Source: a virus. From it: 21,436 bases of DNA. This document shows, piece after piece, positions 2 through 10,939 of the stretch. The stretch is from IMG/VR virus record IMGVR_UViG_3300008120_005414, positions 1-21,436 of that record; one strand, given 5' to 3'. The notes beneath the pieces were generated by a model, which saw only the letters and a program-made list of their open reading frames with translations, was not told the DNA's origin and did not search any database. The position numbers were made by a program, and so were the translations under genes. Each line of letters begins with the position of its first letter. Position 1 is the stretch's first letter.

Positions 2-883
2 TTACATGCTGGGTTTTATGTAATCGGCGTAGATAAGAAGACATACGCGGCTAATTTAAATTTGTTACCCGATCTACAAAAATTTGGTAAGCAGTTTAAG
101 TTTATAGAATCGGATATCAATGATCTTGATAGTCTACACGATTGTGATTACGTCATCAATACTGCTGCAGAAACACATGTAGATAATAGCATCGTAAATC
201 GCGATGTTTTTGTTCGTAGCAACATTAATGGAGTACATCATCTTCTAAAGCTAATACGAGAACACTATAAGATGCCAACTCTATTGCATTTTAGTACAGA
301 CGAGGTGTACGGTGATATAGCTGTAGGTTCTCATACTGAACAAGATCTGTTAAAACCAAGTAATCCTTATAGTGCTACTAAAGCTGCGGCTGATATGTTA
401 GTTTTGGCATGGGCAAGAACTTATGGTGTTCCTTATATAATCGTAAGACCCACTAATAATTATGGTATCGGACAATATGTAGAGAAACTTATACCTAAAA
501 TGTGCAAATATTTGTCTTTAGGTAGAAAGATTCCTTTACATCAGGGAGGAACTCCGCGAAGAACTTGGCTTCATGCTCTTGACACTGCCAATGCTATTAT
601 TACTCTTATAGAACATGGTGTTACAAATGAGATCTATAACATCTCTGGAAACTATGAAGAGCAGAATATAGAAGTAGTAAAGAAGATATTACAATGCTAT
701 TTCATACATGATAAATATAATGTCGAAGATCATCTAGACTTAACATTTGCAAGACCTGGACAAGACGTTAGATATTCGATAGATGATACTAAACTTCGTA
801 ATCTAGGTTGGAAACCTCAGGCAGATTTTGATAAGGAATTACCTGACATTGTTTCCTATTATAAAGAAAACTTTATTTGGTAA
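2..883 (+). CDS. rmlB: dTDP-glucose 4,6-dehydratase-like SDR, 5' end cut off by window
   Basis: The frame is open from the first bases and codes for 293 residues. The N-terminal GxxGxxG NAD-binding loop lies outside the window, so about 20-30 residues are missing. Seen: the STDEVYGD segment, matching the Thr-Asp-Glu catalytic motif of RmlB; the YxxxK motif in YSATKAAAD; the NNYG...EKLIPK segment; and RPGQDVRYSIDDTKL near the C-terminus, matching RPGHD..YAID of the family. Family knowledge: these extended short-chain dehydrogenases convert dTDP-glucose to dTDP-4-keto-6-deoxyglucose using bound NAD. In a phage this could feed sugar modification of host surface or phage DNA, or change host polysaccharide. 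A related epimerase or dehydratase acting on another nucleotide sugar is possible. It ends 12 bases before the pqqA start and probably shares its transcript. Confidence 0.85.
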   Translation, partial: LHAGFYVIGVDKKTYAANLNLLPDLQKFGKQFKFIESDINDLDSLHDCDYVINTAAETHVDNSIVNRDVFVRSNINGVHHLLKLIREHYKMPTLLHFSTDEVYGDIAVGSHTEQDLLKPSNPYSATKAAADMLVLAWARTYGVPYIIVRPTNNYGIGQYVEKLIPKMCKYLSLGRKIPLHQGGTPRRTWLHALDTANAIITLIEHGVTNEIYNISGNYEEQNIEVVKKILQCYFIHDKYNVEDHLDLTFARPGQDVRYSIDDTKLRNLGWKPQADFDKELPDIVSYYKENFIW

Positions 884-895
884 AGGAGAGATCTT

Positions 896-967
896 ATGTG
901 GACACAGCCAACATTTGAAGATGTACGATTTGGTTTTGAAGTAACCATGTACATTAATAATCGATAA
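896..967 (+). CDS. pqqA: PqqA, 23-residue precursor peptide of the cofactor PQQ
   Basis: This short frame reads MWTQPTFEDV, then RFGFEVTMY, then INNR and stop. It is 23 residues, the same length as classical PqqA of Klebsiella and Pseudomonas. The glutamate and tyrosine of the E-V-T-M-Y core fall at positions 15 and 19, the two side chains that PqqE cross-links and that become pyrroloquinoline quinone. The MW start and the R-x-GFEVTMY core match the Pseudomonas-type peptide. A strong ribosome site (AAAGGAGAG, 882-890) lies just ahead. No pqqB-E genes are visible here, so the peptide would have to be processed by host PqqD/PqqE/PqqF-like proteins. PqqA is consumed one-for-one per PQQ, so extra peptide could raise cofactor supply for methanol dehydrogenase. 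The formaldehyde-fixing genes just downstream support this reading. Confidence 0.93.
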   Translation: MWTQPTFEDVRFGFEVTMYINNR

Positions 968-976
968 GTATATAAT
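948..976 (+). promoter_or_regulatory. candidate sigma70-type promoter for hxlA
   Basis: TGTACA (948-953, four of six matches to TTGACA), a 17-base spacer and TATAAT (971-976, perfect) overlap the end of pqqA. A start near 983 would put the following hairpin and T-run inside a short leader ahead of hxlA. AT-rich DNA gives chance matches, so this is tentative. Confidence 0.35.
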
Positions 977-1690: not shown

Positions 1691-2249
1691 TTACTCTGAT
1701 GTTCTTGATATTCTAAGAGACGAACTGCTCTATACCGAAAAGGAAACATGTCAGCAACTTATTGATGTACTCATTCATACGATAAGTCGGAAAGAACATT
1801 ATAATGGCGGAAGAGTGTTTATTGCTGCTGCTGGTAGATCTAAGATGGTTGCCAATATGTTTGCGATGCGAATGATGCATTGTGGATTAAATGTGCAAGT
1901 AGTTGGAGAAACTACTACAACTCAGATAACGAGATTTGATTCGCTTCTTCTCGTTTCTGGTTCGGGTGAGACTAAGCAGTTGATCAATTTTGCTGAGAAG
2001 GCAAAGTCAGTTCGTTCAGAAGTATTGTTAGTAACAGCAAATCCAACTTCTACTCTTAGGAATATGGCTGATGAGGTTTTTCAGATTGGTCCATCAAATA
2101 GACTTCTATCTCCTGATAAGAATCTTCCTCTCGGTAGTAGGTTTGAACTCTCTACTATGATATTTTTTGAAACTGTTATTCTTAATTTCATGGAACAACT
2201 GAAGCTCACTGAAGACAATTTGAGAAACTGTCATACTAATTTGGAATAA
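1683..2249 (+). CDS. hxlB: 6-phospho-3-hexuloisomerase (PHI)
   Basis: PHI isomerises hexulose 6-phosphate to fructose 6-phosphate, the partner step to HPS. I chose the GTG at 1683: it overlaps the HPS stop, has GGGAAG nine bases upstream (1668-1673), and gives 188 residues starting MANYSDVL, the normal size. Starting at 1617 would bury the gene in hxlA. Seen: a SIS fold with the AAAGRSKMVANMFAMRMMHCG segment (family: GAGRSG..A.AFAMRLMHLG), VVGETTT, SGSGET for sugar-phosphate binding, and PLGSRFELSTMIF (family PLGTLFE). All key segments look intact. The stop lies directly ahead of the tmRNA, and a late-promoter-like box overlaps its last codons. Confidence 0.92.
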   Translation: MANYSDVLDILRDELLYTEKETCQQLIDVLIHTISRKEHYNGGRVFIAAAGRSKMVANMFAMRMMHCGLNVQVVGETTTTQITRFDSLLLVSGSGETKQLINFAEKAKSVRSEVLLVTANPTSTLRNMADEVFQIGPSNRLLSPDKNLPLGSRFELSTMIFFETVILNFMEQLKLTEDNLRNCHTNLE

Positions 2250-2252
2250 ATA
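2245..2252 (+). promoter_or_regulatory. candidate late promoter for the tmRNA (AATAAATA)
   Basis: AATAAATA overlaps the hxlB stop codon. It differs from the T4 late box TATAAATA in the first base only; that base is variable in marine T4-like phages. A start about 12-15 bases on would fall at the expected 5' end of the tmRNA acceptor piece. Confidence 0.4.
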
Positions 2253-2326
2253 GTATTGTTGGTATGGTCGTATGAAGTAAAGGGAAGGTATTCTGGACGC
2301 GGGTGCGAATCCCGCCACCTCCACCA

Positions 2327-2410
2327 AAAGCACACTCACCAACGCAAGGGGCGTTGGTCCCATTAAGGTTTTCTAGAGACTGGGATAGTTGCAACGAGTG
2401 TGCTTTTGAT
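2327..2410 (+). other. tmRNA intervening segment, removed on processing
   Basis: These 84 bases join the CCA end to the mature 5' end. AAAAGCACACTC (2326-2337) pairs perfectly over 12 bases with GAGTGTGCTTTT (2396-2407). Inside are hairpin ACCAACGC/GCGTTGGT (2338-2345, 2351-2358) and a weaker CCCA/TGGG pair (2359-2362, 2381-2384), giving a three-way junction stacked next to the acceptor stem. Processing at the CCA and at G2411 would free the two pieces. Confidence 0.8.
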
Positions 2411-2497
2411 GGGGGTGACTAGATTCGACAGGGTAAGATACTGATACAGACGACTCGGTAGGCGATGACCGTAAATCAAGCAAAAAATATAAATGTC

Positions 2498-2542
2498 GCA
2501 GCAAACGACGATCTATTTGAAGGTTACGCTCTAGCAGCTTAA
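2498..2542 (+). other. tmRNA tag reading frame (AANDDLFEGYALAA, stop)
   Basis: The resume codon is taken as GCA at 2498, directly after ATGTC, where E. coli and Caulobacter tmRNA have GTC-GCA. The frame reads A-A-N-D-D-L-F-E-G-Y-A-L-A-A and ends at TAA (2540-2542). The AAND start matches the alphaproteobacterial form, and the A-L-A-A end fits recognition by ClpXP. Confidence 0.9.
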
Positions 2543-2563
2543 TCTGTCATTAGCGGGGTGTTC

Positions 2564-2605
2564 GGTCCGTTGTCCTTGTTACTCAATCAACGGACCACCT
2601 AATTT
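2564..2605 (+). terminator. hairpin at the end of the tmRNA coding piece
   Basis: GGTCCGTTG (2564-2572) pairs perfectly with CAACGGACC (2588-2596) around a 15-base loop (TCCTTGTTACTCAAT). ACCTAATTTTT follows, so it may end the tmRNA precursor, although the T-run is set back a few bases. It may instead be the last helix of the mature RNA. The loop contains the stop codon of the HNH gene on the other strand. Confidence 0.55.
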
Positions 2606-3212
2606 TTGTTGACAATTTCGCGTTACAAGATCTACTACAACATTTTTGATTTGAAGGCGATTTGTGTACAAACTCTTGCTTTACAAAATTATTTTTGCAA
2701 ATTACGCAAACATATTCTCTATTGATCTTCGGTTTAGATTTGTGAATCACATTTAATGATTTTAAAAGCGTTGATTGTGTGCATTTTCTTTCTGGATTTT
2801 TAGACCAAGCCTCTTTCGCAGATTTTCCATCTTTATTTGGATTATTTGATTTGAATAATTCAGCGTGTTTCTGTCTAGCAGAAGAATACAATGAAGAATT
2901 TATTAAATAATTTCTTTGATGATTATCAGTTTGTTTTACCATCATTCTCATTAATGCATAATTCATTTGAAATTGTTTTCTTCCTTCAAACATCTTAGTA
3001 AGAAGTAAATGACAGATATAATGTTCTCTCGCGGTTAGCTTGACTATATTTTCTTGATCTTTTTCACCACCCAGTTTAAAACATTTAGGTAAAATATGGT
3101 GATTCTCACCATAACCATTTACATATTTTGAGTTTTGTATTATACTAATATACCATTTAGTATATTTGTTTGAAAGGGATAAAAATTGGATTTGTTGAAT
3201 ATAAATATTCAT
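2583..3212 (-). CDS. HNH homing endonuclease, free-standing
   Basis: This is a 209-residue protein and the only gene on the minus strand. Seen: an HNH core with GENHHILPKCFKLGG (His38, His39), ENIVKLTAREHYICHLLL (Asn55, His64, His68), and a C-terminal zinc-finger-like CVIC...CCSRSC region. HNH nucleases cut DNA with a divalent metal; free-standing ones in T4-like phages act as homing elements that spread to sister phages. The start at 3212 has AAGGAGT seven bases upstream. The gene ends inside the hairpin loop at the tmRNA end, so its transcript runs antisense into the tmRNA. It is clearly more AT-rich than its neighbours, which fits separate origin. No intron is apparent. Confidence 0.88.
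   Translation of the reverse strand: MNIYIQQIQFLSLSNKYTKWYISIIQNSKYVNGYGENHHILPKCFKLGGEKDQENIVKLTAREHYICHLLLTKMFEGRKQFQMNYALMRMMVKQTDNHQRNYLINSSLYSSARQKHAELFKSNNPNKDGKSAKEAWSKNPERKCTQSTLLKSLNVIHKSKPKINREYVCVICKNNFVKQEFVHKSPSNQKCCSRSCNAKLSTKIRWSVD
3200..3207 (+). promoter_or_regulatory. TATAAATA box pointing right
   Basis: This exact T4-type late box lies inside the first codons of the HNH gene but reads on the + strand, towards the gene at 3338. It would make a leader of about 125 bases containing the hairpins described for this region. It may be chance, since the element sits in a reading frame. Confidence 0.35.
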
Positions 3213-4032: not shown

Positions 4033-4854
4033 ATGGCTTCACAACAAGGATTTGAATACGAAAAAAATGCAGTTGCATATTTAAAAAACTATGGATTGTC
4101 TGATGGAATCCCTGCTGGCCCTAGCCATACACGCCCAGATTTAATGTTAACAGTTCATGGAAAAAAATCTGGTTGCGAATTAAAAATTAGCCCTACTGCA
4201 GGTGGAAGTCTAGTTTTAAAATATTATAGCAAAAAAACTCCGCATTGGCAGTTCGGAGAAGTTGATCATGACGAAACCGAAAAAATTTTTCTGAGTGAAC
4301 TAGCCACAAGATCTGGTGTACTGCAAACTGTAAATAGTACATGGAATATTCCTCCTTTCTTAATAGAAGACAGAGATGCAAATCACGAGCAAATAATGTT
4401 ACAAATTCCATTACGTCAAAGATATGAAGCAGATTTAAAAGCTTGCACAGACGTAAAGCTTCCTTTAGAATCAAGCGCAATGTCGAACTATTATAATATT
4501 AAAAACACATACTATATAAACGTTGGAACACACGGTTTTTTCTTATTGGGAAACAAAGATCCGTTAGGATTAAATGATAGTTTAAGAAAAAAAAATAAAT
4601 CAATAGTGCCCATATTTGAAAGTACAGCTAAGATTACTGCTAGAGTAAGATGTCAATCAAAAGGTGTAACAAAAGCTGATGCTGCAGAAAAGTCAAAAAG
4701 ACAAATAGGAACACAAGGTTATCAATTTACTTTCACTTTAGAATTTTCTCTTGCAACAAATGCATCTCCTTATAATATCGCACCATTAGCAAGTAATGGG
4801 AAATCAGTAACTATTCTTGCTAATAAAGAAGCTTTATTAGATTGTTTAAGGTAA
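4033..4854 (+). CDS. unknown protein with possible PD-(D/E)XK nuclease core
   Basis: The product is 273 residues. Near the N-terminus, RPDLMLTVHG followed by GCELKIS gives the P-D...E-x-K spacing of PD-(D/E)XK nucleases (about residues 34-53), preceded by a helix (GFEYEKNAVAYLKN) as in that fold. Such a protein would cut or bind DNA with a metal ion. The rest, including a Phe-rich TYYINVGTHGFFLLG stretch, matches nothing I know. Codon use is more A-rich, with frequent AAA and TTA, than the flanking genes. A virion or DNA-processing role is possible. The call rests on a short motif only. Confidence 0.55.
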   Translation: MASQQGFEYEKNAVAYLKNYGLSDGIPAGPSHTRPDLMLTVHGKKSGCELKISPTAGGSLVLKYYSKKTPHWQFGEVDHDETEKIFLSELATRSGVLQTVNSTWNIPPFLIEDRDANHEQIMLQIPLRQRYEADLKACTDVKLPLESSAMSNYYNIKNTYYINVGTHGFFLLGNKDPLGLNDSLRKKNKSIVPIFESTAKITARVRCQSKGVTKADAAEKSKRQIGTQGYQFTFTLEFSLATNASPYNIAPLASNGKSVTILANKEALLDCLR

Positions 4855-7917: not shown

Positions 7918-8973
7918 ATGCTTAAATTTTTAGACTACGTAACGGAAGAAAAAGAGCGTCATGCTGTAGTGGCATTTGGGCGCATGAATCCTCCTACGAC
8001 TGGTCATGAAGCGCTTGTCAATAAAGTCAAAGAACATGCTGCACATGTAGGCGGAGACGCTCATGTCTATCTTTCACATTCTCAAGACGCTAAGAAGAAT
8101 CCATTATCATATGAACACAAAGCATCATATGCGCAAAAGGCATTTGGAGATACAATAAAGAAATCTCCTGCTAAGAATCCTTTAGAAACTCTTAAAGATC
8201 TTCATAAACAAGGTTATCATCATGTAACTATGGTTGCTGGTAGTGACAGAGTAGATGAATATAAGAATCTATTACATAAGTATAATGGTCATCCAGATCA
8301 TTATAACTTTAAGTCCATACATGTAGTTTCTGCCGGAGAAAGAGATCCTGATTCAGAAGGCGTTTCTGGTATGAGTGCTTCTAAGATGAGAGAGCATGCT
8401 AAGAACAGCAATCATGAAGGGTTCAAATCTGGATTACCAGATAGTTTAAAAAAGCACAGTAAAGAAATCATGCATCATGTTCGAACTGGCATGAATATCA
8501 GCGAAGCTAAAGACACTACTACAATTGTATATGCTCGAGTACCTCCTAAGCCTCTTCAAAAGGGACCAATTCAACGACAAAATGCTTCTGGTGTTTTAGA
8601 ATATCTAAAGCAACTCGTCGTAGGTATAAAAAATAAAAATGCAGCTATGGTCAATAAGCCAAATAGAAAAGTCAATGATAAGATCGTTGGCATGTATGCA
8701 GGCGATACAAATAAGAATGGTAAAGCACTAACAGAATCATATGAAAGCTTTAATGTCGTTAAAGCTGCTGGTTATGGAGCCATCTTAACAGCTGCAGATA
8801 TGGGCATTAAGATCAAAGGTGGGTTTGCCCATCATCCATCAGTAGAAAAAGAGTTGATGGAAAGAATGGGATGTGGATGTGACGAAAAGGATTGCGAACA
8901 CGAGTTGGAATATAAACTACAAAAGAAACGTAACTTAAGAAGAAAACAATTTAAACTTGGAGATGAGTCATGA
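7918..8973 (+). CDS. NMNAT/cytidylyltransferase-type nucleotidyltransferase with leader
   Basis: The product is 351 residues. Residues 1-14 (MLKFLDYVTEEKER) resemble a capsid-targeting leader. A Rossmann nucleotidyltransferase domain follows: GRMNPPTTGH (21-30, the T-x-G-H form of the HxGH motif) and SASKMR (153-158, the ISSTxxR-type motif). Enzymes of this kind transfer a nucleotide to a phosphate, as in NAD or CDP-glycerol synthesis. Residues about 195-351 form another domain with TESYESFNVVKAAGYGAILTA and a Cys cluster CGCDEKDCEH that might bind metal. Homologues are common in marine T4-like phages, with unproven substrate. It overlaps the next gene as ATGA. Confidence 0.75.
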   Translation: MLKFLDYVTEEKERHAVVAFGRMNPPTTGHEALVNKVKEHAAHVGGDAHVYLSHSQDAKKNPLSYEHKASYAQKAFGDTIKKSPAKNPLETLKDLHKQGYHHVTMVAGSDRVDEYKNLLHKYNGHPDHYNFKSIHVVSAGERDPDSEGVSGMSASKMREHAKNSNHEGFKSGLPDSLKKHSKEIMHHVRTGMNISEAKDTTTIVYARVPPKPLQKGPIQRQNASGVLEYLKQLVVGIKNKNAAMVNKPNRKVNDKIVGMYAGDTNKNGKALTESYESFNVVKAAGYGAILTAADMGIKIKGGFAHHPSVEKELMERMGCGCDEKDCEHELEYKLQKKRNLRRKQFKLGDES

Positions 8974-10263: not shown

Positions 10264-10502
10264 TGGACGAACTTATCAAAGAAATCTTATCGCATAAAGA
10301 TGACGATTCTGCACTTGGTGAACTTGCTGCAGAACTTCATAATATCATTGAAGATCATAAAGCCGGAGATATTTCAGACGAAGATCTAAATGATCTTTTG
10401 ATTGAAACTATTCAGGTTTATAAAGCCCATGAAACAGCGCATAATGAAGTCATGATTAGATGGGCGGTTAAACTAGCTCAGCTTGCAGCAAAGGCAGTCT
10501 AA
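10263..10502 (+). CDS. small acidic protein
   Basis: The product is 79 residues. The start at 10263 (MDELIKEILS) forms a TAATG with the preceding stop and has GAGAGG ten bases upstream; an earlier in-frame ATG at 10248 is less likely. It is mostly helical and acidic (HKDDDSALGELAAELHNIIEDH, SDEDLNDLL). No family is recognised. It is coupled to the Dps gene by TAATG. Confidence 0.7.
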   Translation: MDELIKEILSHKDDDSALGELAAELHNIIEDHKAGDISDEDLNDLLIETIQVYKAHETAHNEVMIRWAVKLAQLAAKAV

Positions 10503-10939
10503 TGACTCTTATTGATTCTATTAAAATGGTTTTGGCAAATAATTTTGCTCTATATCTAAAAGCGCATTATTTTCATTGGAATGTTGAAGGTCCAGATTTT
10601 GCTCAATTTCATGATTTTTTTGAAAATCTTTATACCGAAATTTATAGCTCAATAGATCATTTTGCAGAAGAGATAAGAGCGTTGGATGCATATGCTCCCG
10701 GATCTTTTGAGCGTTATGTAGAACTTTCTCAAATCAAGGGCGAAGAGAGACTTTTAACTTCTCTAGAAATGTTAAGACAATTACAAGTTGATAATCAAAC
10801 TATGATTGCTTCTTTACAACAAGCATATAAATTAGCAGAAGCTTCAGTTGAACTCGGTCTTTCTAATTTCATTCAAGATAGAATAGATCAACACAAAAAA
10901 CACGCTTGGATGATCAGATCATTCCTTAAAGGACGATAA
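10502..10939 (+). CDS. dps: Dps-family ferritin-like protein
   Basis: The product is 145 residues. Dps proteins form 12-subunit shells that oxidise and store iron and shield DNA from hydroxyl radicals. Seen: LKAHYFHWNVEGPDFAQFHDFFE and then IDHFAEEIRALD, which carry the inter-subunit ferroxidase residues His25, His37, Glu41, Asp52 and Glu56 in the spacing of E. coli Dps (His51, His63, Asp67, Asp78, Glu82). The C-terminal IDQHKKHAWMIRSFLKG matches the last Dps helix. There is no long Lys-rich N-terminal tail, so direct DNA binding is uncertain. It sits among late genes and could be made late or packaged; that is inference. Confidence 0.88.
   Translation: MTLIDSIKMVLANNFALYLKAHYFHWNVEGPDFAQFHDFFENLYTEIYSSIDHFAEEIRALDAYAPGSFERYVELSQIKGEERLLTSLEMLRQLQVDNQTMIASLQQAYKLAEASVELGLSNFIQDRIDQHKKHAWMIRSFLKGR

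Follow-up and report, generated by a model that had tools for sequence, protein, structure and literature searches.

What kind of RNA gene lies just behind two genes of one-carbon metabolism in a phage genome fragment, is it kept in working order, and what would it do for the virus that carries it? The fragment is virus DNA from the record IMGVR_UViG_3300008120_005414 (21,436 nt, hereafter the window), in which the original prediction, made from the letters alone, had placed a phage-encoded, circularly permuted, two-piece tmRNA, i.e., the RNA that frees stuck ribosomes, at 2260-2600. Covariance searches were proposed at the time as a check, and they agree with that reading. Using cmscan, the permuted model (RF04321, tmRNA_permuted) was matched over its full length (1-213) at 2266-2542 on the plus strand with 129.4 bits (E 1.7e-25, cut-off 47), the betaproteobacterial model (RF01850, beta_tmRNA) was matched at 2227-2602 with 101.6 bits (E 3.1e-30), above its gathering cut-off of 84, and ARAGORN independently called a permuted tmRNA at 2234-2633. 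The model matches also bear out the proposed bounds.

The gene order is permuted as described, with the T arm and CCA (2299-2326) preceding the 5' acceptor strand (2411-2417), and all features lie on the plus strand. The first RNA piece (2260-2326; outer 5' end approximate, RF04321 beginning at 2266) holds the 5' strand of the P2 helix (GGTCGT, 2266-2271), the T arm (2299-2315, T stem 2299-2303/2311-2315), the 3' acceptor strand CACCTCC (2316-2322) and ACCA (2323-2326). Next comes an intervening segment of 84 nt (2327-2410), predicted to be removed, whose fold is a long hairpin that stacks on the acceptor stem (z-score -4.98; of 200 shuffles, not one reached its stability). The second piece (2411-2602; the RF01850 match ends at 2602 and the outer 3' end is approximate) contains the 5' acceptor strand GGGGGTG (2411-2417), the D-arm region, the 3' strand of P2 (2450-2455), the mRNA-like domain and a 3' hairpin (2565-2572/2588-2595). 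All seven acceptor pairs form, as had been noted, over exactly 84 intervening bases between the CCA end at 2326 and the 5' strand start at 2411, with a single G.U at position 3; the alanine identity pair G3:U70 is thus intact, and CCA is present in the window. This gene order predicts processing of the RNA into two separate pieces. The tag frame recognized originally is found by both the Rfam match and ARAGORN at 2498-2542, encoding AANDDLFEGYALAA with a degradation-type end and a TAA stop (GCA GCA AAC GAC GAT CTA TTT GAA GGT TAC GCT CTA GCA GCT TAA). ARAGORN puts an extra leading V on this tag (GTC, 2495-2497), the counterpart of the E. coli codon preceding the resume codon. On the opposite strand, a homing endonuclease gene (phrog_655, 2583-3212, minus strand) ends within the tmRNA 3' hairpin; no such gene adjoins the tmRNA in the other hxlAB phages read, and it may have moved in beside, or together with, the tmRNA 3' domain.

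The window is a fragment of a T4-superfamily phage, with genes for a head/packaging structural protein, DNA primase, ThyX, ribonucleotide reductase, a spanin-like protein and DUF6267, the last having its best phage matches among T4-superfamily cyano-, pelagi- and Melnitz-type myophages (ca. 31-35% protein identity). An incomplete dTDP-glucose 4,6-dehydratase-like gene occupies the left end of the record (2-883, plus strand), and a Dps-like protein (phrog_3636), with DpsA models scoring below their cut-offs, is encoded at 10502-10939 (plus strand). Upstream of the tmRNA, on the same strand, lie hxlA (1055-1690), encoding a 3-hexulose-6-phosphate synthase (HPS; TIGR03128, 236 bits against a cut-off of 200; best PDB match 3ajx, a 3-hexulose-6-phosphate synthase), and hxlB (1683-2249, GTG start), encoding a 6-phospho-3-hexuloisomerase (PHI; TIGR03127, 162.5 bits against 160; PDB match 1m3s, PHI-type). 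The two genes overlap by 8 nt, an overlap that is identical in five phages, and have dN/dS values of 0.06-0.23 (hxlA) and 0.07-0.23 (hxlB). This gene pair, the one line of evidence used here, makes a RuMP methylotroph the likely host, the Methylophilaceae being the likeliest candidates. HPS relatives were found in 144 of 150 Methylophilaceae genomes (best 62% identity to the phage protein), Methylophaga HPS reaches ca. 58-60%, and in an HPS tree the phage proteins form a clade of their own (98/91) beside proteobacterial methylotrophs, in which no donor for the phage hxlA was resolved.

Relatives of hxlA occur in six IMG/VR contigs (L003-L008), and a permuted tmRNA follows hxlA-hxlB, at a distance of 0 to ca. 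0.5 kb, in all five whose sequence extends downstream (L007 ends too early to show this region). L004 and L005 resemble each other in both HPS identity and tmRNA scores, and as they may be a single virus, we count four independent contigs in addition to the window. The linkage of hxlAB and tmRNA appears to be new. We found no report of hexulose or hexuloisomerase genes in viruses in the literature searched (supplements and most subscription journals being outside its scope), a silence that is not proof of novelty. By eye, a look-alike of S-adenosylmethionine decarboxylase lies just upstream of hxlA in L008 (5482-5832). One further contig, L216 (154,777 bases), has no hxlA, and its tmRNA comes directly after the last 23 codons of hxlB (8252-8320), and the simplest reading of this one case would be a loss of hxlAB with retention of the tmRNA. 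A terminator-like CCCACG...CGTGGGTTTTT stands immediately upstream of this remnant.

Retention in L216 is perhaps owed to a promoter in the hxlB end. The sequence AATAAATA (2245-2252, plus strand), just before the tmRNA and one mismatch from the T4-type TATAAATA, is a candidate late promoter and recurs at the hxlB end in L003, L008, L216, L004 and L006; 8-mers like it are expected by chance in the window. Upstream of hxlA, TGTACA-17-TATAAT (948-976, plus strand) is a sigma-70-like candidate, and the number of such sites in the window is not above shuffle expectation. A search for a strong promoter between hxlB and the tmRNA returned nothing beyond chance, and AATAAATA is retained as a candidate only.

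Is the RNA itself under maintenance? We aligned 94 viral permuted tmRNAs, among them matches listed by an IMG/VR pattern scan (at least 120 stretches). The acceptor is paired at seven of seven positions in all 94, each with CCA and with G1-C72, G2-C71 and G3.U70, and position 5 runs through all four Watson-Crick pairs (G-C, A-U, C-G and U-A). Since the scan pattern fixed most letters of the 3' acceptor strand and the 5' strand was taken as the best-pairing 7-mer before the D-arm motif, independent evidence comes only from the variable positions and from L004 (for the universal G3:U70, the independent part is the 5' G). L004 was found via its HPS gene and not via the pattern, and it shows compensatory changes at acceptor positions 4 and 6. 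Of the 76 predicted pairs, 13 differ on both sides among the six closest phages and are still paired, including three T-stem pairs and a P2 pair that went from C-G to U-A. The covariation term of RNAalifold is near zero overall, with a fold that also pairs the poorly supported tag and outer regions, so it is the acceptor, T and P2 pairs, rather than the fold as a whole, that carry the case for maintenance. The compensatory changes in these three helices indicate that the tmRNA is maintained in related phages.

Sequence conservation runs along the same lines. Two cores of 38 and 72 bases (110 together) are free of substitutions in five of six phages, bar single-base gaps; the counterpart of 2261-2298 is identical in four of five related phages, and the core of the second piece (2411-2602) is identical or almost so across the six, while hxlA dS is 0.34-0.62 among the four of those phages that carry hxlA. 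The intervening segment retains its outer stem in all six though its inner sequence varies. Variation comes in blocks in the T arm, the intervening segment, the tag and the 3' domain: one intervening segment is common to L003, L004, L006 and L216, and one tag and 3' domain to L004 and L006, a pattern that looks like recombination between phages. RF01850 also scores above its cut-off in L003, L004, L005, L006 and L008. The L004 gene was missed by ARAGORN; its T loop (GGCAGTG, ca. 4681-4687) is not of the usual TTCGATT type, and as the phage Melnitz has a similar one (GGCAGTA), we do not read it as decay. Tag middles vary among relatives but the ALAA end is conserved, and both NDD and ALAA are retained in three different tag versions. 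More widely, 68 of 83 distinct viral genes among the matches listed have tags ending in LAA, a count that rises to 78 when MAA and VAA endings are included. The phages listed have a longer stretch from CCA to the 5' acceptor strand (median 73 nt, range 12-175) than do those bacterial permuted genes that were read (median 30).

To which lineage does the gene belong? Two-piece phage tmRNAs are already published: of the 133 tmRNA structures that the authors of Melnitz counted in phages, 53 were of this form (PMC9004378). In IMG/VR, too, permuted forms are common, our scan having yielded at least ca. 80 distinct permuted viral genes; "rare", as the form had originally been called, was too strong. 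The final tree comprised 102 tmRNAs, with permuted genes re-ordered to one-piece order, and its deep placements are soft owing to an alignment of only 186 columns; groups were named partly after a first tree had been seen, and the set held no cyanobacterial and no named SAR11 gene. That first tree, built without real beta references, suggested a lineage made up mostly of phages, which broke up once we added 11 permuted genes of beta type together with further alpha references taken from small genomes, and hence we claim no single phage origin. The tmRNAs of the hxlAB phages form one clade (100/99), whose sister is a group of bacterial beta permuted genes (L327-L329; 90/94) from genomes of ca. 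2 Mb, with loci of 40-45% G+C; the sister relation has moderate support from these sequences. A clade uniting the hxlAB phages with Melnitz and Mosig was rejected (AU p 0.007), as was one with the one-piece genes of Methylophilaceae alone (AU p 0.013). The test did not reject a grouping with alphaproteobacterial genes (p 0.33), nor one with the one-piece genes taken as a whole (p 0.23).

An origin from a host one-piece tmRNA is unsupported by the Methylophilaceae loci, the tree and the AU test, and the one-piece tmRNA of a host of Methylophilaceae type is probably not where the phage acquired its gene. A permuted tmRNA scored above cut-off in only one of the 150 Methylophilaceae genomes, that of Novimethylophilus, which also has a one-piece gene; at the other loci read, nearly all ARAGORN calls were one-piece, with tags ANDETYALAA, ANDETYSLAA or ANDDNYALAA. 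The second Novimethylophilus tmRNA (L316, 8149-8945, minus strand) is permuted, has the tag ANDESYRLVA and stands apart from the one-piece gene; it adjoins, by eye, an SmpB-like protein and may sit on a mobile element. The Methylophilaceae one-piece tmRNA, as the probable host's rescue RNA, shares the tag logic with the phage gene but is unpermuted and forms a separate clade (100/100). L327-L329 share the structural type of RF01850 and are the nearest bacterial relatives in the tree, but they are parts of bacterial genomes, have intervening segments of 30-33 nt against 84 here, and carry the tags ANDENFALAA or ANDESYALAA.

The Methylophilales (OM43) phage Melnitz (MZ577097, PMC9004378), named in the original prediction for a tmRNA said to be under a glutamine riboswitch, is likewise a T4-superfamily phage of a methylotroph host with a permuted ssrA, an intact tag frame and no smpB found. 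Its own features are the tag ANDNYVPVDYALAA, a 142-nt intervening segment, a reported glutamine riboswitch, a late-transcription coactivator as neighbour and no hxlA, whereas the gene in the window fits the beta model best, lies behind hxlAB and takes a separate position in the tree. The impression by eye that no glutamine riboswitch is present holds, RF01739 being without a match at E <= 1, and with the Melnitz/Mosig clade rejected, a Melnitz-type gene under such a riboswitch was discarded. Nor is the window Melnitz or a near relative: megablast against 50,697 phage records, a set from which very near records may be absent, gave no match, and genes common to both share ca. 33-51% protein identity. 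Pelagibacter phage Mosig (MT647606) also has a permuted tmRNA, but one that fits the alpha model (67.6 bits), with the tag GEDNFALAA and other neighbours. Lake Baikal T4-like phages of probable Methylophilaceae carry another one-carbon gene, methanol dehydrogenase, and methanol oxidation was reported for them, with hexulose genes and tmRNA unmentioned (PMC7678222). As far as the literature was searched, what is new here is a beta-type lineage, free of a riboswitch, in a probable methylotroph phage.

What, then, would the RNA do? The tRNA half, the tag and the helices are all intact, and the explanation that best accounts for this is ribosome rescue in partnership with host SmpB. We consider it probable that the phage carries a functional permuted tmRNA gene, of betaproteobacterial structural type and from a permuted lineage close to the bacterial beta-type genes, and its most likely function would be to rescue ribosomes via host SmpB and to tag proteins for host proteases. 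A phage-own SmpB was sought and not found in the window, and an smpB gene turned up in one of all 49 records searched (absent from 47 of the 48 others); with none in the window, the RNA would depend on the SmpB of its host. It is established that tmRNA is alanylated via G3:U70 and processed by RNase P and at the 3' end, and that proteases recognize its tag. We envisage a single precursor, transcribed by read-through from hxlAB, from a late promoter at the end of hxlB, or by both routes. Host RNase P would cut it before G2411 and host 3' maturation would trim it back to the CCA at 2326; the 84-nt hairpin would thereby be released, and the two remaining RNAs would stay together through their acceptor and P2 pairing. 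The phage tmRNA would then be charged by host AlaRS and brought by host SmpB to ribosomes that stall, during infection, on mRNAs that are broken or truncated. The nascent chain would receive the charged alanine and a tag ending AANDDLFEGYALAA, and its degradation by ClpXP-type host proteases would recycle ribosomes and amino acids for phage synthesis.

Tagging could also be the main task in itself, marking host or phage proteins for proteolysis so as to feed synthesis or alter the proteome, an idea raised by the authors of Melnitz (PMC9004378). The phage tags are unlike the ANDETYALAA of Methylophilaceae and vary between phages, as such directed proteolysis might lead one to expect, but their degradation end remains host-like, and because trans-translation frees the ribosome in the same step, sequence hardly separates the two functions; we regard it as an improbable main task. 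It is similarly doubtful that hxlA, hxlB and the tmRNA constitute one co-expressed cassette against formaldehyde stress, in which HPS and PHI would use up formaldehyde building up in the infected methylotroph, yielding sugar phosphate for nucleotides, and the tmRNA would free ribosomes stalled on formaldehyde-damaged mRNA. The linkage of the three genes is observed, and co-transcription and a shared purpose are conjectured from it; counter to the idea, L216 has the tmRNA without hxlAB, and no hxlA was found in the other large tmRNA-bearing phage contigs searched. Still less probable is a decoy that draws SmpB, AlaRS or ribosomes off the host tmRNA and so blocks host trans-translation: a tag-less form from phage DS6A has been reported to inhibit E. 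coli tmRNA (PMC11915505), and the phage RNA would be foreign to a host whose own tmRNA is likely one-piece, but a decoy needs no tag, and here the frame is full length with NDD and ALAA kept in three versions. That the gene is a captured or decaying passenger (a host fragment or integration-site scar) without phage function is very improbable, for although tmRNA genes are common integration sites (PMC11915505) and L004 has an unusual T loop in a gene unreported by ARAGORN, its acceptor changes are compensated and its loop resembles that of Melnitz, pairs co-vary, the core is nearly invariant despite high hxlA dS, the gene is kept in L216 without hxlAB, and there is no one-piece source.

A phage-borne rescue RNA working with host SmpB remains our preferred reading, and the placement of the gene suggests that methylotroph phages hold permuted tmRNAs from more than one lineage. 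A switch from SAR11 to OM43 hosts was inferred from Melnitz; with more than one permuted lineage in such phages, a permuted phage ssrA beside an unpermuted host ssrA need not mean a host switch of this kind. The gene offers a test case of a phage rescue RNA with a foreign architecture that is obliged to work with the SmpB of its host, and with the RuMP entry enzymes encoded by phages, formaldehyde fixation would join the known effects of phages on one-carbon metabolism.
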